DNA of 62,999 nucleotides. Origin: Ruminococcus sp. (GTDB taxonomy: Bacteria > Bacillota > Clostridia > Oscillospirales > Ruminococcaceae). Shown piece by piece: positions 9,175 to 28,671 of the stretch; positions within the stretch are counted from its first letter, which is position 1; each line of letters opens with the position of its first letter. The notes under the pieces are model-generated. The model was not told the DNA's origin, did no database searches, and worked only from the letters and a program-made list of their open reading frames with translations. Location: positions 1 to 62,999 of the forward strand of contig SVNP01000014.1 in the NCBI GenBank assembly GCA_015066805.1, given 5' to 3'. The position numbers and the translations under genes were made by a program.

Positions 9175-9482
9175 ATTGAATATGAATAAAGGCGTTGATG
9201 AAGACGGATTCTATGAGTCGTTTTCCCAGAGAGTCGGGGGTGGTGCGATCCCGATAAAATGCAGTAGAAGATCCCATCCCTTCTGAGCCGGAAGCCCCAA
9301 AGGTTCCAACACCCAGTAGGCGTTTCCCGTTTGTGCTACGTTAGTGCATAGAAGTTATTGGACTTCGAAGAGGTGGCGGACACATCCCGGGATGTGACGC
9401 AATTTGAGTGGTACCGCGAGTGCTGATGATTCACACCCGTCTCAAAGCAAACATGGGCTTTGAGGCGGGTTTTGTTTTTTTC
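9175..9482 (+). ncRNA. T-box leader (probably isoleucine-specific)
   Basis: Leader of about 300 bases. The conserved T-box core TTGAGTGGTACCGCGAG lies at 9404-9420, followed by a terminator (ACCCGTCTCAAAGC ... GGCTTTGAGGCGGGT then a T-run, 9435-9482). Stem I runs from about 9190 to 9285, including CAGAGAGTCGG near 9224. By the usual position near the 3' side of Stem I, the specifier is probably ATC (Ile) at 9271-9273. Uncharged tRNA-Ile would stabilise the antiterminator and permit ilvA-leu-ilv expression. Specifier assignment is by eye; the T-box itself is secure. Confidence 0.9.
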
Positions 9483-20140: not shown

Positions 20141-20578
20141 TTATCGGTTGTTGATGTATGCGATCATAGCGTGCATGGCTTCAATGTACCCCTGAAAACC
20201 TTTGCCGCAGATGGTTTGTATACAGCCCTTGCGGATATAAGATACATGACGGAAATCCTCACGGGTATCGGGGTCGGTGAGATGCACCTCAATGGTGGGG
20301 ATCTGTACCGCTTTGACAGCATCCAGCAGGGCAACGCTGGTGTGGGTATAGGCGGCCGGATTGATGATGATGCCGTCTGCCTTGCCGTAGGCTTCCTGAA
20401 TCAGATCCACCAGAGTGCCTTCATGGTTGGATTGCTTGCATTCGATGGTGATGCCGCATTTTTCTGCTTCTGCTTCCAGCAGATTGACCAGATCCGCATA
20501 GGTTTGTGTACCGTAATGCTCCGGCTCACGCAAGCCCAGCAGATTCAGATTCGGTCCATTGAGAACAAGTATATGCAT
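20141..20578 (-). CDS. aroQ: 3-dehydroquinate dehydratase, type II
   Basis: 145 residues from ATG 20578, preceded by GGAGGAATACA; the frame upstream of this is antisense-free overlap with aroEK, not aroQ. Type II signature ILVLNGPNLNLLGLREPEHYG at the N-terminus with catalytic Tyr in EHYG, IINPAAYTHTSVALLDA near 73 and HLTDPDTREDFRHVSYI near 99 (catalytic His and Arg). Dehydrates dehydroquinate to dehydroshikimate. Start lies 52 bases inside the end of aroEK; last gene of the aromatic operon. Confidence 0.95.
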   Translation of the reverse strand: MHILVLNGPNLNLLGLREPEHYGTQTYADLVNLLEAEAEKCGITIECKQSNHEGTLVDLIQEAYGKADGIIINPAAYTHTSVALLDAVKAVQIPTIEVHLTDPDTREDFRHVSYIRKGCIQTICGKGFQGYIEAMHAMIAYINNR

Positions 20579-21806
20579 TGTATTCCTCCATAATGGCGGC
20601 TGCCGTTTCTTCGGGAGTGCCGCTGTTTTCCACGCTGTATTGTGCCAGAGCTTTGTAAAGGGGGGTACGGATTCTTGCCAGCTCCTCCAGACGGTTTTGC
20701 TGAGAAAGCGGTCTGCCATCGGTGGGCAGCAGTGCAAGGTCCCGCTGCAGCCGGTAGATTCTGCCGTTGCTGTGCAGCGGTGCATGGTTTGCCTGATCCA
20801 GTACCACACCGCCGCCTGTCATCAGAATGATACCGCGCTTCTGCGACCATTCCAACACCGCCTGATGCTCCAGTGCACGGAAGGCAGGCTCGCCTTCTGC
20901 CGCAAAAATCTCGGGGATGGTTTTTCCTGCCATGCGTTCAATTTCCCCATCCAGATCCACGGCGGTTTTGCCTGTTATTTTTGCCAGTGCGGCACCTACG
21001 GTGGATTTTCCGCAGCCGGGCATACCGATCAGTACGATAGATTCGTTCTGCTGCTGCAGATCCCGACCGACACGGGCAATTTCACTGTCAGAGATGGTGG
21101 TGTGGAAGAACAGCTCCTCTGCCTGCTTTGCCTGGGCTACCAGCATAGGCAGACCGCCGCTGTATGGGATCCCCAAAGCCTCTGCCTGCAGCAGCAGAGC
21201 GGTACGGCAGGGATTATAGATCAGATCTACCACGCCCCTGCACTGAGGGAACATGGTCAGATCCACCAACGACTGCCCTGCATTTGGGTACATCCCCACA
21301 GGGGTCGCATTGATGATCAGTGTGCTGTCCGTAAACCGGGGCAGATCATCATAGGTGTATTCACCCTTCAGGTCCCCCACAATGATGCGCTGTGCGCCAT
21401 CCAGCTTAGCAAGTGCCTGTACTGTCTGGGAGGCTCCGCCATTGCCCAGAATCAGCACCTTTGCACCTGCAAAAGAGAGCCCTGCATTACGCATGAGATA
21501 GCGGAAGCCGTAGGCATCGGTGTTATAGCCGGTCCAGCTTCCGTCGGCTTCCCGCACCATGGTGTTTACACTGCCAATGGCTTCTGCCAGAGGATCCAGC
21601 CGTTTGCAGAAGGGCATTACGGTGATCTTATAGGGAATGGTCACATTCAGTCCCTTCAGATGGGGCTGTGCCAGAAAATCCGGCAACGCCTCCGGCTCCA
21701 TGGGGTAGCACAGATAATCGGGGTTGCCAAAGGCGGCGTGAATCGCAGGGGAATCACTATGCCCCAGCTTTCTTCCAATGAGTCCGTAGGGGGTCATTTC
21801 GCACAT
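20526..21806 (-). CDS. aroE-aroK: Fused shikimate dehydrogenase - shikimate kinase
   Basis: 426 residues in one frame. Residues 1-245: shikimate dehydrogenase (GLIGRKLGHSDSPAIHAAFG, GLNVTIPYK with catalytic Lys, GYNTDAYGF, nucleotide loop LILGNGGASQTV near 118, INATPVGMYP). Residues 250-410: shikimate kinase (P-loop LIGMPGCGKSTVG near 258, DLDGEIERMAGKTIPEIF, TGGGVVLD, lid DGRPLS). It catalyses two consecutive shikimate-pathway steps. No internal ribosome site is evident at the junction, so the fusion is likely real. AroQ starts inside its 3' end. Confidence 0.95.
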   Translation of the reverse strand: MCEMTPYGLIGRKLGHSDSPAIHAAFGNPDYLCYPMEPEALPDFLAQPHLKGLNVTIPYKITVMPFCKRLDPLAEAIGSVNTMVREADGSWTGYNTDAYGFRYLMRNAGLSFAGAKVLILGNGGASQTVQALAKLDGAQRIIVGDLKGEYTYDDLPRFTDSTLIINATPVGMYPNAGQSLVDLTMFPQCRGVVDLIYNPCRTALLLQAEALGIPYSGGLPMLVAQAKQAEELFFHTTISDSEIARVGRDLQQQNESIVLIGMPGCGKSTVGAALAKITGKTAVDLDGEIERMAGKTIPEIFAAEGEPAFRALEHQAVLEWSQKRGIILMTGGGVVLDQANHAPLHSNGRIYRLQRDLALLPTDGRPLSQQNRLEELARIRTPLYKALAQYSVENSGTPEETAAAIMEEYNAYTCSQWTESESAGLA

Positions 21807-21821: not shown

Positions 21822-22967
21822 TCAGCCGGCACACTCGGTATAATTGCCAAGGAAGGTAAAGGTCTCGCTGCTGCGCTGCAGATCATCCAGCAATGCCATA
21901 ACACCCTCCTGGTGGAGAGAGCCTTCCAGATCCATAAAGAAACGGTAGGTAAAGTTACTGCCGGAAATAGGCGCGCTTTCCAGCTTGCACATATTCACGC
22001 CTGTGGCAGAGATCTTTGCGATCATCTCATATAGCGCACCGGGTCGGTTGGCGCAGCTCAGCATCAGGCTGATGCGGTTTGCGCCTGCAAACAAAACAGG
22101 CTCCTTGGAGATGCAAAGGAAACGGGTCTCGTTGTTATCGTGATTCTGGATGGTATCACACAGCACCCGCAGGCCGTACAGCTTGGCACAAACCTCCGAG
22201 GCGATGGCTGCCACACCGGGATCCTTGGATTCGGAAGCACGCTTGGCAGCGTGGGCGGTGCTGGTGCAGGGAACAATATCCACCTTGCCAAGTGAGGAGA
22301 GAAATTCGCTGCACTGGTTGAGTGCCTGCTCGTGAGAATACACGGTATGGATATCGGACAATGCCACACCGGGTCTTGCCAGCAGCATCTGCCGCACAGA
22401 AAGCCGTATGCTTCGTGCGATGTATGCCTTTTCCTGCCGCAGCAGCTCATAAACGGCACGCACCGAACCGCTGTTGCTGTTTTCAATGGGCACAACACCG
22501 TATTGACAAAGTCCTGCTTTAATGGCACGGAATACAGCGGCAAAGCCATCCACATGCATCAGGTCGCCGCGAGGAAACAGATGCTCTGCGGCGGATTGTG
22601 CATGGCTGCCTTCAATGCCGGAGCAGGCAATTCTGCCGGAGGCGGGAAACAGCTTTTGCTCCTCATTGCACATTTTCTGCAAGATATCAGTCAGCTCGGA
22701 GCTGTGCTTCATACTGGCAGATTGCTGCGCCTTGGAAAGCTCCATCAGTGTCTTGAACAACTGATGTGCGGCTTTTTCCTGCTTGGGGCCTGCTGCCTGA
22801 TGTACCTTTTCCAGGATCAGTCGTTCTCTGCTGGGATCATACACAGGGGTGTGCTCATGCTTTTTTGCTTCGCTGACCTGTTCCACCAGCTCCATACGCT
22901 TCAAAAACAGTGCCAGCAATTGATCGTCCACACTGTCAATTTCCTTGCGGATATCCTTCAGTTCCAT
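21822..22967 (-). CDS. pheA: Bifunctional chorismate mutase - prephenate dehydratase
   Basis: 381 residues. Residues 1-85 are an AroQ-type chorismate mutase (IRKEIDSVDDQLLALFLKRM). The prephenate dehydratase domain (about 105-285) shows VPIENSNSGSVRAVYELL and the catalytic NETRFLCIS. A C-terminal ACT domain (about 295-375) has RPGALYEMI, the Phe-binding GAL region; the usual ESRP is ESAP here, which may alter feedback sensitivity. Directs chorismate to phenylpyruvate. Fits a Phe/Tyr-controlled operon. Confidence 0.95.
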   Translation of the reverse strand: MELKDIRKEIDSVDDQLLALFLKRMELVEQVSEAKKHEHTPVYDPSRERLILEKVHQAAGPKQEKAAHQLFKTLMELSKAQQSASMKHSSELTDILQKMCNEEQKLFPASGRIACSGIEGSHAQSAAEHLFPRGDLMHVDGFAAVFRAIKAGLCQYGVVPIENSNSGSVRAVYELLRQEKAYIARSIRLSVRQMLLARPGVALSDIHTVYSHEQALNQCSEFLSSLGKVDIVPCTSTAHAAKRASESKDPGVAAIASEVCAKLYGLRVLCDTIQNHDNNETRFLCISKEPVLFAGANRISLMLSCANRPGALYEMIAKISATGVNMCKLESAPISGSNFTYRFFMDLEGSLHQEGVMALLDDLQRSSETFTFLGNYTECAG

Positions 22968-22988: not shown

Positions 22989-24068
22989 TCATTGCTCTGC
23001 CAGAAGATCCAAAATCACCAATGCGGTAACAGCCTCCAGCACAGGCACTGCCCGATGGGCAATGCAGGGATCGTGGCGGCCTTGGATCACCAGTGTTTCT
23101 TCGGTATGCCCGGAAAGGGAAACGGTCTTCTGGGGCTGCCCGATGGAAGGCGTGGGCTTGACTGCCACACAGAACCGCAGGGGCATACCGTTGGTAATGC
23201 CGCCCTGAATACCGCCGCTGTGGTTGGTTTCCGTTGCGATCTTTCCGTTTTCATCTATGCAGAAGGGGTCATTGCACTGAGAACCCCGCATGGCAGCACA
23301 GCCAAAGCCGCTGCCGAATTCAATGCCCTTAATGGCAGGAATGCCAAATACCGCACCTGCGATACGGTTTTCCATGCCTTCAAACATGGGGTCACCCAAG
23401 CCTGCGGGCAGGCCGATGACCATACATTCTACGGTTCCGCCCACGGAATCCTTTTCCTTGGCGGCAGCCATGATCTCCGCCTGCATGGCTTCTCCGCAGC
23501 GGTCATCGCAGACGGGGAAGGCTTTTTGACCCGGAGCCAGCAGCGTATCGGCATCCGGCAGCATGGGGTAGGGCTGATCCTTTGCATTACCCACACTGAG
23601 CAGATGGGCACCGATGAAAATGCCCTTCTGTGCCAGGATCTGCAAAGCAATGCCGCCTGCCACACAAAGGGGGGCAGTCAATCGGCCGGAAAAATGGCCG
23701 CCGCCCCGCATATCTGCCTGTCCCTGCCATTTCAGGAAAGCGGTATAATCCGCATGAGAGGGGCGGGGCAGATCGGAAAGTGCTTTATAATCGCCGGAAC
23801 GGGTGTCTGTATTGCAAATGGTGGCACACAGAGGGAAGCCGGTGGTATGTCCCTCAAATAAGCCCGAAAGGATTGTGGGGCGGTCGCTTTCCTTGCGTGG
23901 CGTGGAAAAAGGGCTGCCGCCGGGCTTTCTTCTTGCCATAAAGCTGTACAGTGCATCCTCGGAGATCTCCATGCCTGCGGGCAGGCCATCCACCACTACG
24001 CCGATGCCGCCGCCGTGGGATTCTCCGAATACGGAAACCCGTACACGTTCACCGAATACCGATGCCAT
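22989..24068 (-). CDS. aroC: Chorismate synthase
   Basis: 359 residues from ATG 24068, preceded by AGGAGGAATAAC and one base after the aroA stop; the longer frame runs into aroA. Signature GESHGGGIGVVVDGLPAG near 14-31, PGGSPFSTPRKESD (FMN/substrate loop), GGGHFSGRLTA and C-terminal SIGQPQKTVS. Reduced-FMN enzyme making chorismate from EPSP. Confidence 0.96.
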   Translation of the reverse strand: MASVFGERVRVSVFGESHGGGIGVVVDGLPAGMEISEDALYSFMARRKPGGSPFSTPRKESDRPTILSGLFEGHTTGFPLCATICNTDTRSGDYKALSDLPRPSHADYTAFLKWQGQADMRGGGHFSGRLTAPLCVAGGIALQILAQKGIFIGAHLLSVGNAKDQPYPMLPDADTLLAPGQKAFPVCDDRCGEAMQAEIMAAAKEKDSVGGTVECMVIGLPAGLGDPMFEGMENRIAGAVFGIPAIKGIEFGSGFGCAAMRGSQCNDPFCIDENGKIATETNHSGGIQGGITNGMPLRFCVAVKPTPSIGQPQKTVSLSGHTEETLVIQGRHDPCIAHRAVPVLEAVTALVILDLLAEQ

Positions 24069-24069
24069 G

Positions 24070-25362
24070 TTATTCCTCCTCTGCTGTGCGGCAGATACCG
24101 CCCAGCTTCTGATAATCCTCAAAAAATGCAGGGTATGATTTATTGACTGCCTCGGTACCCAGTACCGTTACAGGATGTGTGCAGCCCAAAGCCGCAATGG
24201 CAGCAGACATGACCATCCGATGATCATTGCAGCCGTTTACGGTGCCGCCTTGCAGGGCACCGCCACGAATCAGCAAAGCATCCTCCAGCTCTGTCACATC
24301 ACCGCCCAGATTTTTCAGCAGCTTTGTGGTTTCTGCCAGACGGTCACATTCCTTCAGGCGCAGTCTTGCAGCGTGATGCAGATGGGTTTCTCCCTTAGCG
24401 TAGGCTGCCAGAACCGACAGGATCGGCAGCAGATCGGGTATCTCCCGCATATCTGCGGAAAAAGCCCGCAGCACGCCGTCCTTGGGGGCAGAAACCGTGA
24501 CACAATCGGCGGATTGTTCCACCACTGCACCTGCCTGCCGCAGGATCTCACAAATGGCCTTATCCCCTTGAGTAGAATCCGCATACACACCATGCACGGT
24601 CACGGGGGCGAAAATAGCTCCCGCAACTAAGAAAAACGCGGCATTGGACCAGTCACCGTCCACATAAAGACTGTCGGGGACGCACAGCTTTTGGTTGCCC
24701 TCGATATAGTAAGCAGGCAGACCGTTTTCGGTTTCCTGCCGGATTTTGGCACCGAATGCCCGCAGCACATTGCAGGTCAGATCCACATAGGCAGCAGATT
24801 CCAGCGGTTTTGTCAGATGAATCACGCTGTCCTCCGTGCCATGAGGCAAGGCCATCAGCAATCCGCTGAGATATTGTGAAGTCACATTGCCTGCCAGCTC
24901 AAATGTGCCGCCCTTCAGCTTGCCTGTGGCAGTAAAGGGCAGAGTCGGCGCATCAAAGGCCACGCCGTGCTGCTCCATCACACAGGTCAGGGCATCAATG
25001 GGACGCTCGGGCAATCTGCCGCTGCCCGTAAAGCTTGCTTTTTCTGCAAAGGTCATGGCAACGGGCAGCAAAAACCGAAAAGTAGAGCCGCTTTCATTGC
25101 AATCCAGCAGCGGTTTTTTCCACTGCCGATGCGGCTGTATGGGAGAAATAAGCACGCCCTGTTCCGTTTCGGTAAAGACCGCGCCCAAAGCCTTCAGGCA
25201 TTGCATGGTAGCCAGAATGTCGGCGCAATGGGGCTTTTGCAGCGGCAAAAACGATTCTTTGTCCGAGCAGGCGGCGCAAATCAGCTTGCGGTGCCCATCG
25301 GATTTGGATGGAATGGCGGAAACCGCACCTTGCAGCACGGCAGGAGTCAGCGTCAGATTCAT
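24070..25362 (-). CDS. aroA: EPSP synthase (3-phosphoshikimate 1-carboxyvinyltransferase)
   Basis: 430 residues. N-terminal SKSDGHRKLICAA substrate Lys/Ser, NESGSTFRFLLPVA near 95 (class differs from LDGxGxMRP), GRLPERPIDALT near 118, DGDWSNAAFFLVAGA near 225, and C-terminal HRMVMSAAIAALG. Substitutions near the PEP site (NESGSTFRF) resemble divergent Clostridia enzymes. ATG overlaps the aroB stop (ATGA) with GGAAGGAG upstream. Confidence 0.95.
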   Translation of the reverse strand: MNLTLTPAVLQGAVSAIPSKSDGHRKLICAACSDKESFLPLQKPHCADILATMQCLKALGAVFTETEQGVLISPIQPHRQWKKPLLDCNESGSTFRFLLPVAMTFAEKASFTGSGRLPERPIDALTCVMEQHGVAFDAPTLPFTATGKLKGGTFELAGNVTSQYLSGLLMALPHGTEDSVIHLTKPLESAAYVDLTCNVLRAFGAKIRQETENGLPAYYIEGNQKLCVPDSLYVDGDWSNAAFFLVAGAIFAPVTVHGVYADSTQGDKAICEILRQAGAVVEQSADCVTVSAPKDGVLRAFSADMREIPDLLPILSVLAAYAKGETHLHHAARLRLKECDRLAETTKLLKNLGGDVTELEDALLIRGGALQGGTVNGCNDHRMVMSAAIAALGCTHPVTVLGTEAVNKSYPAFFEDYQKLGGICRTAEEE

Positions 25363-26432
25363 GCGGAAGCTCCTTCCTGTACACCATCCAGGATCAGCGC
25401 ACCCATATCATCTGATGAGAGCTTTTCCATACGGCAAGACCCAATGCGTTCCGGTAGGATCACCGTAATAGAGGAGCCTGCGGCTTTTTTATCCACTTTG
25501 GTGAGTGTATCCAGTGTTTGAAGATCAAAGGCGGTTTCCACAGGCAATGCATTGCGCTGCAGCGTATGCAAGATCCGCTGTGCATCCTTGTGGGAAAGCA
25601 TACCCCGCTTGGCGGCTGCTCTTGCCACATATGCCATACCAATGGCCACTGCATGACCGTGAGAGATACCGAAATCCGAGGCACGCTCTACGGCATGACC
25701 GATGGTATGTCCCAGATTCAGCAGCTTACGCACCGAATGCTCTGTGGGGTCTTCCGCCACAATTTTTGCCTTATACGCCACACAACGGGCAATGATCTCC
25801 TCATAAGAAGTGGAAGGATCGCCGGATTCATAAATGGCAAACAGCTCACTATCCCCCAGAATACCTGTTTTGATGGCTTCCGCCGCACCGTCTGCAATGC
25901 AGTGTTGGTTCAGTGTGGCAAGACATTGGGGGTCACACAGCACCATTTGGGGCTGATGAAACAGCCCTGCCAGATTTTTGCCTGCATCCAGATTCACAGC
26001 CGTTTTTCCGCCCACGGATGCATCCACTGCCGCAAGCAGGGTAGTGGGCATCTGTACAAAGGAGATACCACGCAGATAACAGCCTGCCGCAAAGCCTGTC
26101 AGGTCACCGATGACACCGCCGCCCAATGCCAGAGCACAATCGGTGCGGGTAAATTTTGTCGCAGCCATGGTCTCCACCACCGTTGCAAGGGTAGTAAAGG
26201 ATTTGGAGCCTTCTCCCGGTGCCACCACAATGGGCAGCACGGAAAACCCTGCCTGCTCCAAGGATGCAGTCACATCCGCCAGATAGAGGGGGGCTACATT
26301 TTCATCGGTGATGACCGCCATTTTACAGGGGGCAATGCGTTCTGCAATCACAGCGCCGCAGCGATGCCGCAAGCCCTGCTCCATCATAACCGGATAGGCG
26401 TGGTCGGTCAGTGCAACTGTTACCGTTGTCAT
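25359..26432 (-). CDS. aroB: 3-dehydroquinate synthase
   Basis: 357 residues. NAD+-binding GGGVIGDLTGFAAGCYLRGI near 103, VDASVGGKTAVNLDAGKNL near 137, catalytic Lys/Glu region GAAEAIKTGILGD near 185, and Zn-binding His residues in LNLGHTIGHAVE near 240 and SHGHAVAIGM. Converts DAHP to dehydroquinate. ATG preceded by AAAGGAG. Confidence 0.96.
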   Translation of the reverse strand: MTTVTVALTDHAYPVMMEQGLRHRCGAVIAERIAPCKMAVITDENVAPLYLADVTASLEQAGFSVLPIVVAPGEGSKSFTTLATVVETMAATKFTRTDCALALGGGVIGDLTGFAAGCYLRGISFVQMPTTLLAAVDASVGGKTAVNLDAGKNLAGLFHQPQMVLCDPQCLATLNQHCIADGAAEAIKTGILGDSELFAIYESGDPSTSYEEIIARCVAYKAKIVAEDPTEHSVRKLLNLGHTIGHAVERASDFGISHGHAVAIGMAYVARAAAKRGMLSHKDAQRILHTLQRNALPVETAFDLQTLDTLTKVDKKAAGSSITVILPERIGSCRMEKLSSDDMGALILDGVQEGASA

Positions 26433-26459: not shown

Positions 26460-27296
26460 TTAGTTTCCGCCTGCGTTTGCCTTGCAGATACGGCCTTCCT
26501 TCAGGCATTCCCGCAGGGTATCCGCATCATTGGCCTGCAAAGCCGAACGGTATTCACTCAGCTTTTCGATCAGCACTGTCAGCTCATCGCAAAGAAAATC
26601 TCTGTTCTGCAGCATCAGCTCTGTCCACATATCCTCATCCAGACGTGCCACACGGGTCATATCCTTAAAGCTGCCTGCGGAAAAACCACGGCGTTTTGCT
26701 GCCGTAGGGGATTTGACATAGGCACCCGATACGATATGGGCAAGCTGAGAGGTATACGCAATGATCTCATCATGCTCCTGCGGGGTGGAAAAGGTCAGGT
26801 TGGCAAAGCCAATATCCGTAAAGTAATTTTTCAGCAGCTCCAGCGTTTTCATATCAATGGAGCTGTCGGGTGTAAGGATCATGGAAGCACCGTCATACAG
26901 CGTTTCGGATGCATTGACAAAGCCGCCGCATTCCTTGCCTGCCATAGGATGACCGCCCACATACATAAATCCGTTTTCCTTGGCAATGGCACCCATGGCT
27001 TCGCAGACTTCCCGCTTGGTGCCGCACATATCCACTACCACAGCACTTTTTGCAATGTGCGCTGCGTTGTTTTTCAGCCAGCCGATGGCAGCACCGGGAC
27101 GCAGTGCAATGAGGATGAGGTCGCTTTGGGGGAGCAATGCTTCATCGTACTGGCAGTCAATGGCTCCGGTGAGCCGTGCAAACAGCTTGACTTCCTCATC
27201 CAGATCACAGCCCATGACGGTATGGGCGGTACGAGCCTTGGTTGCCTTGGCAAGAGAGCCGCCGATGAGTCCCAGACCTACGATTGTGATATTCAT
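26460..27296 (-). CDS. tyrA: Prephenate dehydrogenase
   Basis: 278 residues; stand-alone dehydrogenase without a fused mutase or ACT domain. Rossmann motif VGLGLIGGSLAKATK at 6-20, GGHPMAGKECGGF near 112 (catalytic His), HDEIIAYTSQLAH near 175 and C-terminal helices (DRDFLCDELTVLIEKL-like). NAD(P)-dependent conversion of prephenate to 4-hydroxyphenylpyruvate for tyrosine. Second gene of the operon, preceded by GAAAGGAAG. Confidence 0.94.
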   Translation of the reverse strand: MNITIVGLGLIGGSLAKATKARTAHTVMGCDLDEEVKLFARLTGAIDCQYDEALLPQSDLILIALRPGAAIGWLKNNAAHIAKSAVVVDMCGTKREVCEAMGAIAKENGFMYVGGHPMAGKECGGFVNASETLYDGASMILTPDSSIDMKTLELLKNYFTDIGFANLTFSTPQEHDEIIAYTSQLAHIVSGAYVKSPTAAKRRGFSAGSFKDMTRVARLDEDMWTELMLQNRDFLCDELTVLIEKLSEYRSALQANDADTLRECLKEGRICKANAGGN

Positions 27297-27317: not shown

Positions 27318-28328
27318 TCAGGCGTTTTCCGAAAGGTAATTGTGCAGACCGTGGAGCTTCTTTGCCACCTCTGCAAAGGTTTCGGGACGGATAGACTGGG
27401 GGCCGTCACAGGCAGCATGCTCGGGATCGTTATGCACTTCGATGATCAGACCATCGCAGCCTGCTGCCACTGCTGCCACGGAAAGCTGCGGCACCAGCCA
27501 TGCTTTGCCTGCTGCGTGACTGGGATCAATGATTACAGGCAGATGGGTCAGCTTACGCAGTACGGGTACTGCACCCAGATCCAGCATATTACGGGTGTAG
27601 CTTTCAAAGGTACGCACACCACGCTCACAGAGGATTACGTTATGATTGCCGCCTGCCATGACATATTCGGCACTCATGAGCCATTCTTCGTAGGTGGCGG
27701 AAAGTCCGCGCTTGATCATAACGGGCTTTTCCTGTCTGCCAAGCTGTTTCAGCAGGTCGAAGTTCTGCATATTTCTGGCACCCACCTGAATCACATCCAC
27801 ATCCTTGAACAAGGGAAGCTGGGCGGTATCCATGATCTCAGTAACAATGGGCAGACCGGTTTCCTGTCTTGCGATCTTCAGCAGCTCCAGACCCTCTGCA
27901 CCCATACCCTGGAAGGAATAGGGAGAAGTACGGGGCTTAAAGGCACCGCCCCGCAGAAGTGTGGCACCGCTTGCCTTTACACTTTTGGCAATGGCAACGA
28001 TCTGTTCTTCGCTTTCCACGGAACAGGGACCTGCCATCAGGGTAAGAGTACCGCCGCCGATCTGGGTATCGCCAACGGTGACAACGGTATTTTCGGGGTG
28101 GAATTTGCGGTTTGCGTTCTTGTAGGGCTCCTGCACACGCTTTACGTCTTCCACAATATCCAGTGCGGAGATCAGGTCGGCATCAATAGCGGCGGTATCA
28201 CCCACCAGACCAAGAATGGTATGCAGCTCACCGGTGCTGGTATGTACTTCGATATGCTTTTCTTTCAGCCAGTCGATCAGGGTAGAAAGCTGCTGTGCAT
28301 CGGGATTCTGCTTCAATACTACGATCAT
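27318..28328 (-). CDS. aroF: DAHP synthase, type I-beta (AroF/AroG of Bacillus class)
   Basis: 336 residues from ATG 28328 with AAAGGAAG upstream; the longer frame crosses the attenuator hairpin. N-terminal ferredoxin-like regulatory domain (residues 1-70: [33 protein letters not shown]) precedes the TIM barrel with MAGPCSVES near 92, [17 protein letters not shown] near 121, [14 protein letters not shown] and DPSHAAGK. Commits PEP and erythrose-4-phosphate to aromatics. First structural gene of the operon, directly behind the attenuator terminator. Confidence 0.96.
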
Positions 28329-28353: not shown

Positions 28354-28390
28354 AAAAAACGCCCACAGCCGTTTGGACTGTGAGCGTTTT
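28354..28390 (-). terminator. Attenuator terminator before aroF
   Basis: Minus-strand AAAACGCTCACAG, 9-base loop, CTGTGGGCG then TTTTTT. Upstream, CAGCCG (28419-28414) can pair with CGGCTG in the 3' arm and would form a competing structure. Position between leader peptide stop and aroF ribosome site is that expected of a ribosome-mediated attenuator. Confidence 0.85.
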
Positions 28391-28436
28391 GCGTCAATGG
28401 GGTGTCATGGTGACGGCTGGCAGAAATGCCTGCCGA

Positions 28437-28559
28437 TCAGATACCGGATGCCGCAATGGTTTTCGCAGTCAAACGACAACAGACCTTATCCATAAAATAA
28501 TAGATAAAGCCATAAAATCGATATTCGGTTGCGTAAAACAAAGCGGTAATACGGTTCAT
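28437..28559 (-). CDS. Phe/Tyr-rich leader peptide of the aromatic operon
   Basis: 40 codons, ATG 28559 to TGA 28437, with GAGAGGAG ten bases upstream. Residues 8-22 read FYATEYRFYGFIYYF, nine aromatic residues (4 Phe, 5 Tyr) in fifteen. The rest (MDKVCCRLTAKTIAASGI) is unremarkable. It lies between a consensus promoter and an intrinsic terminator ahead of aroF. Ribosome stalling on Phe or Tyr codons should expose the antiterminator and raise expression. A hairpin (CGCACAGC / GCTGTGCG, 28575-28604) precedes its ribosome site. Inference from layout; the sequence itself is clear. Confidence 0.85.
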   Translation of the reverse strand: MNRITALFYATEYRFYGFIYYFMDKVCCRLTAKTIAASGI

Positions 28560-28642
28560 GATGATAACTCCTCTCGCACAGCGATCTGCGCATGATGCTG
28601 TGCGGCGCTGCAAAAGATAGGGATAAGATACCTTATGTATCC

Positions 28643-28671
28643 ATTATATCACGAATTTGCCATTGTTTCAA
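28643..28671 (-). promoter_or_regulatory. Sigma-A promoter of the aromatic operon
   Basis: TTGAAA (28671-28666), 17-base spacer, TATAAT (28648-28643) on the minus strand. Transcription should start near 28636, giving a leader of about 310 bases before aroF that contains the leader peptide and attenuator. Confidence 0.9.

Follow-up and report, generated by a model that had tools for sequence, protein, structure and literature searches.

Textbooks treat the attenuation of amino-acid operons by leader peptides chiefly as a device of Proteobacteria, and present Gram-positive bacteria as users of T-boxes and TRAP. In the pheA, pheST and trp leaders of Proteobacteria, a peptide rich in codons for the end product goes together with RNA segments that act as protector, antiterminator and terminator. 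The T-box leaders of the aromatic genes of Firmicutes also sense tRNA charging and control terminator read-through, without any ribosome or leader peptide. The leader discussed here, from a Ruminococcus sp., is composed like those of Proteobacteria, but it departs from them in several respects: it matches no Rfam family at cut-off, it brings Phe and Tyr codons together, it precedes aroF and an eight-gene operon for the synthesis of shikimate, phenylalanine and tyrosine, and its host belongs to the class Clostridia.

The closest published motif that we found is uORFC-13-1, a predicted upstream ORF with one or more Phe codons and a terminator, located exclusively upstream of aroF and made of 24 sequences, from Acholeplasma and environmental samples only, with at least one Phe residue (Brewer et al., 2021; PMC8632094). 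Compared by description, it shares with the present locus a possible promoter, a ribosome site and a base-paired substructure, whereas the portion of that article which describes it makes no explicit mention of Tyr or of an antiterminator. Leader-peptide transcription attenuators responding to histidine have been predicted in a few Firmicutes, namely six members of the B. cereus group, five Eubacteriales and six Erysipelotrichales (PMC9413887); this is the same kind of attenuation, Eubacteriales included, for a different amino acid. No His-rich leader stood out near hisG at 30 loci read on both strands (at most 4 His in 10 residues, a count made without shuffle control). In the Gram-positive B. 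subtilis, the tlrB leader likewise combines transcription attenuation with translation of a leader peptide, but it responds to the antibiotic tylosin, not to amino-acid supply (PMC12288461). In open-access text, none of the matches listed describes a Phe/Tyr leader before aroF in Clostridia, an absence that carries little weight.

We analysed a window of 62,999 nucleotides, that is, the whole stretch of DNA presented above. On its minus strand the initial annotation had read, in this order, a consensus promoter, a leader peptide with its own ribosome site and nine Phe/Tyr in fifteen residues, an intrinsic terminator and aroF, the first of eight aromatic genes that include an AroE-AroK fusion. 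Every one of these parts lies where it was said to be (Table 1), and aroF, with its ATG at 28328, is followed by seven more shikimate/Phe/Tyr genes; Pfam supports the assignment of all eight, the fusion included. The pathway that they encode leads to tyrosine and phenylalanine via prephenate. The codons of the leader thus match the two end products of the operon, as its gene content is read from Pfam, and the eight genes presumably make up a single transcript.

Table 1. Positions of the leader elements and of the genes of the aromatic operon in the window
Feature	Position	Strand	Basis
Sigma-70-type promoter TTGAAA-17-TATAAT, extended -10 TG	28643..28671	-	11/12 consensus matches
Ribosome-binding site of the leader ORF, AGGAG	28568..28572	-	read from sequence
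Leader peptide ORF, 40 aa, MNRITALFYATEYRFYGFIYYFMDKVCCRLTAKTIAASGI, then stop	28437..28559	-	read from sequence; aromatic density kept in relatives
Control codons, nine Phe/Tyr in fifteen (FYATEYRFYGFIYYF)	28494..28538	-	read from sequence
Segment 1 (candidate protector strand, limits approximate)	28518..28538	-	MFE fold and stall model
P1 hairpin GGCTTTATCTAT/ATGGATAAGGTC, within the aromatic codons	28482..28511	-	paired, covarying
Segment 2 CGTTTGACTGCG, 5' strand of the antiterminator, in the leader ORF past the last aromatic codon	28464..28475	-	pairing and covariation tests
Segment 3, inner 5' arm of the terminator and loop; partner is segment 2 (antiterminator) or segment 4	28371..28386	-	pairing and covariation tests
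Intrinsic terminator, 15 bp (28390-28356), loop CAAAC, with U tract	28354..28390	-	covarying stem
Segment 4, 3' arm of the terminator	28370-28356	-	part of terminator
aroF, DAHP synthase, first gene of the operon	27318..28328	-	Pfam DAHP_synth_1 3.8e-76
tyrA, prephenate dehydrogenase	26460..27296	-	Pfam PDH_N, PDH_C
aroB, 3-dehydroquinate synthase	25359..26432	-	Pfam DHQ_synthase
aroA, EPSP synthase	24070..25362	-	Pfam EPSP_synthase
aroC, chorismate synthase	22989..24068 (scanned as 22989-24071; start inferred)	-	Pfam Chorismate_synt
pheA, chorismate mutase-prephenate dehydratase	21822..22967	-	Pfam CM_2, PDT
aroE-aroK fusion, shikimate dehydrogenase and shikimate kinase	20526..21806	-	Pfam Shikimate_dh_N 9-82, SKI 263-408
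aroQ, type II dehydroquinase	20141..20575	-	Pfam DHquinase_II

In the window itself, the number of Phe/Tyr in 12 residues is matched by only 1 of 1000 dinucleotide shuffles of the 450 nt upstream, the 288-nt leader folds 5.1 standard deviations better than its own shuffles (z = -5.1; 0/200 as low), and the energy of the terminator is -21.7 kcal/mol. The promoter scan returned four sites where 3.0 were expected, a number not above chance, and TTGAAA-17-TATAAT was the best of the four. The 5' UTR holds a second hairpin, GCACAGC/GCTGTGC, at about 28604-28575 on the minus strand, just ahead of the ribosome site of the leader; by eye, a similar hairpin is found there in the nearest congener (L002).

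How far such leaders extend was assessed by counting, upstream of aroF, any ORF with at least 6 Phe/Tyr in 12 residues that ends within 280 nt of the gene. At the level of the order, 78 of 100 genomes, that of the window included, had a DAHP synthase, and 90 upstream loci were taken from 76 of these genomes, G038 and G092 being left out. About half of the loci have a Phe/Tyr-rich ORF (45/90, or 44/88), against 2.6% of 1800 shuffles, and 19 of the 90 reach at least 8 Phe/Tyr in 12, as no shuffle does; the fraction is lowered because the loci include paralogues of DAHP synthase. Class-wide, 128 genomes were searched, 94 of which had a match, and 89 of some 144 places, mostly the better-scoring ones, were retained, 88 with enough upstream sequence. 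A Phe/Tyr-rich ORF precedes 47 of these 88 DAHP-synthase genes, in 26 of 36 families, and is absent at the other 41, with the proviso that these counts can include chance ORFs (L195, from family f44, one of the 26, is by eye part of a T-box). Among the matches listed, 80 named records were taken, 77 with enough upstream sequence, and 51 of the 77 genes have the ORF. The shuffle null for the class and named-record sets together stands at 15/825. The named bearers comprise Clostridium magnum (L244), C. ganghwense (L277), Angelakisella massiliensis (L240), Bittarella massiliensis (L238) and, less surely, Faecalibacterium prausnitzii (L274), and most of the remaining bearers are metagenome-assembled genomes.

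Phenylalanine and tyrosine are both present in nearly all these leaders (43/44 in the order, 45/47 in the class, 50/51 in the named records), and tryptophan is rare in their richest 18-mers (4/785, 11/838 and 6/900 residues, respectively). This composition agrees with the earlier suggestion that Phe and Tyr, but not Trp, would be the end products sensed. A terminator follows the leader at 40/44 loci in the order, 35/47 in the class and 38/51 among the records, against 3/220, 1/235 and 1/255 in shuffles; where such an ORF is missing, a terminator is found in the last 160 nt at 9/44, 17/41 and 7/26 loci. Of the 49 order-level leaders examined, 48 have a Shine–Dalgarno-like word ahead of an in-frame start, as compared with 574 of 2450 local shuffles. 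Within the genus the peptide core AEYRFYGFIYY is well conserved, and the length, ends and sequence of the leader differ widely among the order-level loci. In short, the frame, its aromatic density and the terminator, whose conservation the initial annotation had proposed to check in relatives, recur together with a ribosome site upstream of aroF in the genus and in the order, and the frame and terminator do so in the class-wide sample as well; the proposal thus survives this check. The dual-sensing leader had been singled out as worth reporting; the leader of the window is not a local oddity, since such leaders are widespread in Clostridia.

For the pairing tests we used 49 leader loci picked by hand from the 90 of the order, some of which (e.g. 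L003, L015, L032, L068) have fewer than 6 F/Y in 12. L071 and L089 were left out of this set, the terminators of L015, L030, L059 and L060 were placed by hand, and alignment A2 (30 cores, with P1 misplaced in several rows) was left out of the counts. Four segments and an extra hairpin, P1, can be recognised: segment 1 with segment 2 is the protector, segment 2 with segment 3 the antiterminator, and segment 3 with segment 4 the terminator. Segment 1 lies before and at the start of the aromatic run, where much of the genus has the codons Ala-Ala/Thr-Glu-Tyr; P1, with consensus RGCTTTRYC/GRYAAGGYY, encloses aromatic codons; segment 2, of the GGTTTGGCTG type (codons Gly-Leu-Ala-Glu), comes after the last aromatic codon. 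The conserved tail of the peptide, DKVCFGLAE, is explained in this way, because its codons form P1 and segment 2. At five loci (L015, L028, L032, L319 and L320) the stop codon falls directly after P1, before segment 2, instead of some 20–30 nt past it; a ribosome at that stop would still cover segment 2.

The alignments argue for strong covariation of P1 and the terminator. P1 alone has 98.7% of its cells paired and double changes in 3 of 8 pairs; P1 and terminator together, in 28 sequences, have 98.0% of cells paired and double changes in 10 of 20 pairs, values reached by 0 of 500 shuffles for paired cells and for double changes, and by 2 of 500 for pair types. An earlier alignment of 21 sequences gave 95.1% paired and double changes in 12 of 22 pairs. 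The antiterminator covaries more weakly, across the set taken as a whole. P1 and antiterminator are paired in 91.3% of cells, with a covariation score of 0.224 against 0.157 in shuffles (0/500), and 13 of the 20 double-changed cells belong to P1, leaving 7 in the antiterminator helix. The two helices of the antiterminator are paired at 65.5% and 90.0%, and its pairs with double changes are not more numerous than in shuffles (5 against 4.3; 203/500). Its registers shift between species, and there are clear compensations, one of which has CGTTTGGCTG with CAGTCAAACG as against GGTTTGGCTG with CAGTCAAACC. The protector pairing of segments 1 and 2, in a fixed register over 28 sequences, has 77.8% of cells paired and double changes in 1 of 8 pairs; it is a plausible candidate.

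An alignment-free test points in the same direction. The energy of the duplex between each leader and the arm and loop of its own terminator, summed over the 49 loci, is -743 kcal/mol, against -637 kcal/mol (sd 16.8) when partners are permuted, and 0 of 20000 permutations are as low, a difference to which the base composition shared within a genome may contribute. Compared with shuffles of the same leader, the antiterminator has a mean z of -0.97 (Stouffer -6.8), with individual significance in only 10 of the 49 loci; the window has a z of -0.5, and its own pairing is no better than that obtained with 31 of 48 other terminators and with 19 of 48 other leaders. The earlier proposal that terminator/antiterminator pairing be examined for conservation thus finds a terminator that covaries and an antiterminator that does so over the set, though weakly locus by locus. 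Compared with sequences recoded synonymously for the same peptide, the leader ORFs also fold better (Stouffer z -10.4; 23/49 at p ≤ 0.05), and RNA structure therefore seems to have been selected beyond the peptide.

We can understand the element, with high confidence, as a ribosome-mediated transcription attenuator of the trp/phe type, which would sense charged tRNA-Phe and tRNA-Tyr and control the whole aroF-tyrA-aroB-aroA-aroC-pheA-aroEK-aroQ transcript. The initial annotation had proposed a Phe/Tyr attenuator, and the conserved frame, its aromatic density, the terminator and the covarying antiterminator, which that annotation had not placed, all features of sequence, speak for it. RNA polymerase would make the leader with a ribosome trailing on the 40-codon ORF. 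When Phe-tRNA or Tyr-tRNA runs short, this ribosome would stall on the nine aromatic codons, covering segment 1 and part of P1 and leaving segment 2 free to pair with segment 3, so that the terminator would be blocked and aroF and the genes behind it transcribed. When both charged tRNAs are plentiful, it would run over segment 2, segment 3 would pair with segment 4, and transcription would stop. It would stop as well if there were no translation, as segment 1 would then cover segment 2. Such a scheme takes it that the leader ORF is translated and that transcription and translation are coupled here, both of which we infer, as we do the direction and size of the response.

The dependence of the antiterminator on the position of the ribosome was modelled with a ribosome that covers the RNA to 12 nt past the A-site codon, the free RNA being folded up to the first six bases of the terminator 3' arm; the model is thermodynamic, with shuffled leaders as control. 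With the ribosome at any Phe/Tyr codon of the window, segment 3 is paired upstream at 84%, and with the ribosome at codons 28–32 at 0–2%; from the last codons through the stop the antiterminator stays at 13–34%, and it is at 21% with the ribosome at the start codon. Over the 49 order-level loci, the core of segment 3 is paired upstream at 0.745 with the ribosome at F/Y, against 0.346 for shuffled leaders; the value is above that of the shuffled leaders in 48 of the 49 and above all 8 shuffles in 36. Pairing at Phe/Tyr codons exceeds that at the last three codons in 49/49 (0.70 vs 0.17), a difference that is partly due to construction, because a ribosome near the end leaves less free RNA. In 25 of 49 loci, the last codon at which pairing keeps half its maximum or more lies 0–4 codons past the last Phe/Tyr, against 12.5% of shuffles. 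An effect of the protector at the start codon is modelled in the window and at 5 of 9 further loci inspected (L002, L020, L028, L036, L040), with little or none at L003, L014, L029 and L041. In this model, then, the position of the ribosome appears to set the choice of pairing as an attenuator of the trp type needs. The finished terminator outweighs the antiterminator at equilibrium, and the switch must therefore be kinetic: the real one would need a ribosome close behind the polymerase.

T-boxes, the other means of sensing tRNA, were found in all 41 genomes searched, over the cut-off in at least 34. Of the 19 congeners that have trpE, at least 9 carry one directly before this gene (G009, G010, G014, G015, G016, G018, G019, G021, G023), and one stands directly upstream of the DAHP-synthase gene aroF at 3 of 16 scanned loci that lack a Phe/Tyr leader (L072, L076, L079). 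As a T-box is found before aroF where the leader is missing, the two tRNA-sensing systems seem to replace each other. No match to trpE was found in the genome of the window (G000, 79.6% complete) nor in five congeners (G006, G011, G012, G013 and G017, 75–88% complete), which means either Trp auxotrophy or missing sequence in these six genomes. The window has a T-box of its own at 9186-9447 on the plus strand (79.3 bits, under the Rfam cut-off of 93), directly before branched-chain ORFs that read by eye as ilvA, leuC, leuB, ilvB, ilvC and ilvD, and we may predict that this operon is under T-box control. The genus seems, as far as sequence can tell, to use T-boxes for tryptophan, and for the branched-chain genes in the window, and a leader peptide for phenylalanine and tyrosine.

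Three other ways of accounting for the locus have to be weighed against ribosome-mediated attenuation. The small ORF might be incidental to a switch that works without translation, whether a riboswitch, a protein-bound RNA or an unusual T-box. The strong terminator and the covarying hairpin speak for such a device, as do the T-boxes before aroF at three of the 16 scanned leaderless loci. Yet the Rfam scan of the leader of the window and of 20 diverse loci with such ORFs returned no family at cut-off; between 28250 and 28750 the matches, which include Thr_leader and the trpB motif, have E values of 0.7 or more (about 1), no T-box is seen at E ≤ 10, and a T-box or other known RNA family at the site was accordingly rejected. 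As, moreover, Phe/Tyr-rich ORFs occur far above chance, with a ribosome site in all but one of the 49 leaders, we consider a translation-independent switch very unlikely.

In the two further explanations it is the peptide that matters. It might act as an arrest peptide of the TnaC or erm kind, binding free Phe/Tyr or another ligand from within the ribosome tunnel, after which the same antiterminator would form. The good conservation of the AEYRFYGFIYY core within the genus is what one would look for in that case; across the order and the class, however, it is the aromatic density that is kept and the sequence that varies, and those codons that are conserved beyond the aromatic run lie in P1 and in segments 1 and 2, where RNA pairing can explain them. 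We therefore hold this nascent-chain switch to be improbable. The ORF might otherwise code for a working small aromatic peptide, of the membrane or signalling sort, with a terminator that merely ends its own transcript. Conservation of the frame and of the ribosome site fits this idea, against which stand the wide variation of length, ends and sequence, the leaders that finish just before segment 2 (the five loci named above) and the complementarity of leaders to their own terminators, which in sum beats that of permuted partners; it can hardly be credited.

Model R1 of the leader element, which reaches 36 of 100 genomes, is biased towards the genus and misses divergent leaders seen by the ORF search, finds the element in 27 of 30 genomes of the genus, in a single copy each except in G016, where there are three, two of these on short contigs. 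In ten genomes (G001, G002, G010, G017, G018, G020, G021, G023, G024, G028; loci L310-L319) one contig carries, in order, the element, its own terminator, a convergent antisense transporter gene and then aroF, and in two more, G005 and G011 (L320/L321), the arrangement is deduced across a contig break, for a total of 12 of the 30. The intervening gene, of about 1.4 kb, belongs to the sodium:neurotransmitter symporter family, an assignment made by Pfam in the one case scanned (SNF 3.5e-57) and by likeness in the rest. Loss of the leader in these twelve congeners, which had been considered, was rejected, as the model places it beyond the transporter gene, about 1.6–1.9 kb upstream of aroF (distances from the ten same-contig genomes).

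The leader promoter is present in 10/10 of these loci with 9–11 of 12 matches and the TG, and in each of the ten, that of the attenuator alone among the plus-sense terminators before aroF is stronger than -14 kcal/mol. Four of these loci also contain weaker candidates, five in all (-9.9 to -13.3): one (-9.9, L312) lies within the antisense gene, and the remaining four precede the terminator of the attenuator. For the transporter, a promoter with 10/12 matches is seen in 11/11 loci, whereas the best aroF-sense match in the gap of 128-377 nt has 7–9/12. The antiterminator pairing is still seen there, with changed partners. In the aroF tree the genome of the window and the deepest congeners have the direct arrangement, and the antisense one is patchy, does not form one clade and requires at least 3 changes; one insertion followed by losses and repeated insertion are therefore both possible.

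With an antisense gene between attenuator and aroF in 12 genomes, the control of aroF must be complicated there. Read-through may cross the antisense gene and so reach aroF; otherwise aroF would have a promoter that went unrecognised, and the attenuator would now govern an antisense RNA. An attenuator-controlled excludon is one possibility: a ribosome stalled for want of Phe/Tyr would send the polymerase through the antisense strand of the transporter and on into the aro operon, so that a single event would switch on synthesis and turn down the transporter. A relative may be found in the ubiG operon of C. acetobutylicum, where an S-box-controlled RNA is produced antisense to a metabolic gene by attenuator read-through (PMC7154746); the control element described there is a riboswitch, whereas the congeners would use a leader-peptide attenuator, and the antisense RNA that they produce by read-through would serve at the same time as leader of the aro operon. 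That Phe/Tyr attenuation is a common default across the class Clostridia, and that part of the genus has an attenuator-driven excludon with an antisense transporter (in 12 genomes, two by deduction), is a wider proposal that we make tentatively, holding it to be possible and somewhat less than probable.

Phe/Tyr-rich leaders before aroF in 26 of the 36 Clostridia families sampled would make attenuation a common control of aromatic synthesis in anaerobes. Phe/Tyr attenuation as a default across Clostridia, if true, would require a working coupling of transcription and translation in these Gram-positive bacteria, and the leader is a natural reporter of whether their ribosomes follow RNA polymerase closely enough for such a switch. 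The form with an antisense transporter, if true, would be a compact trade of uptake against synthesis.
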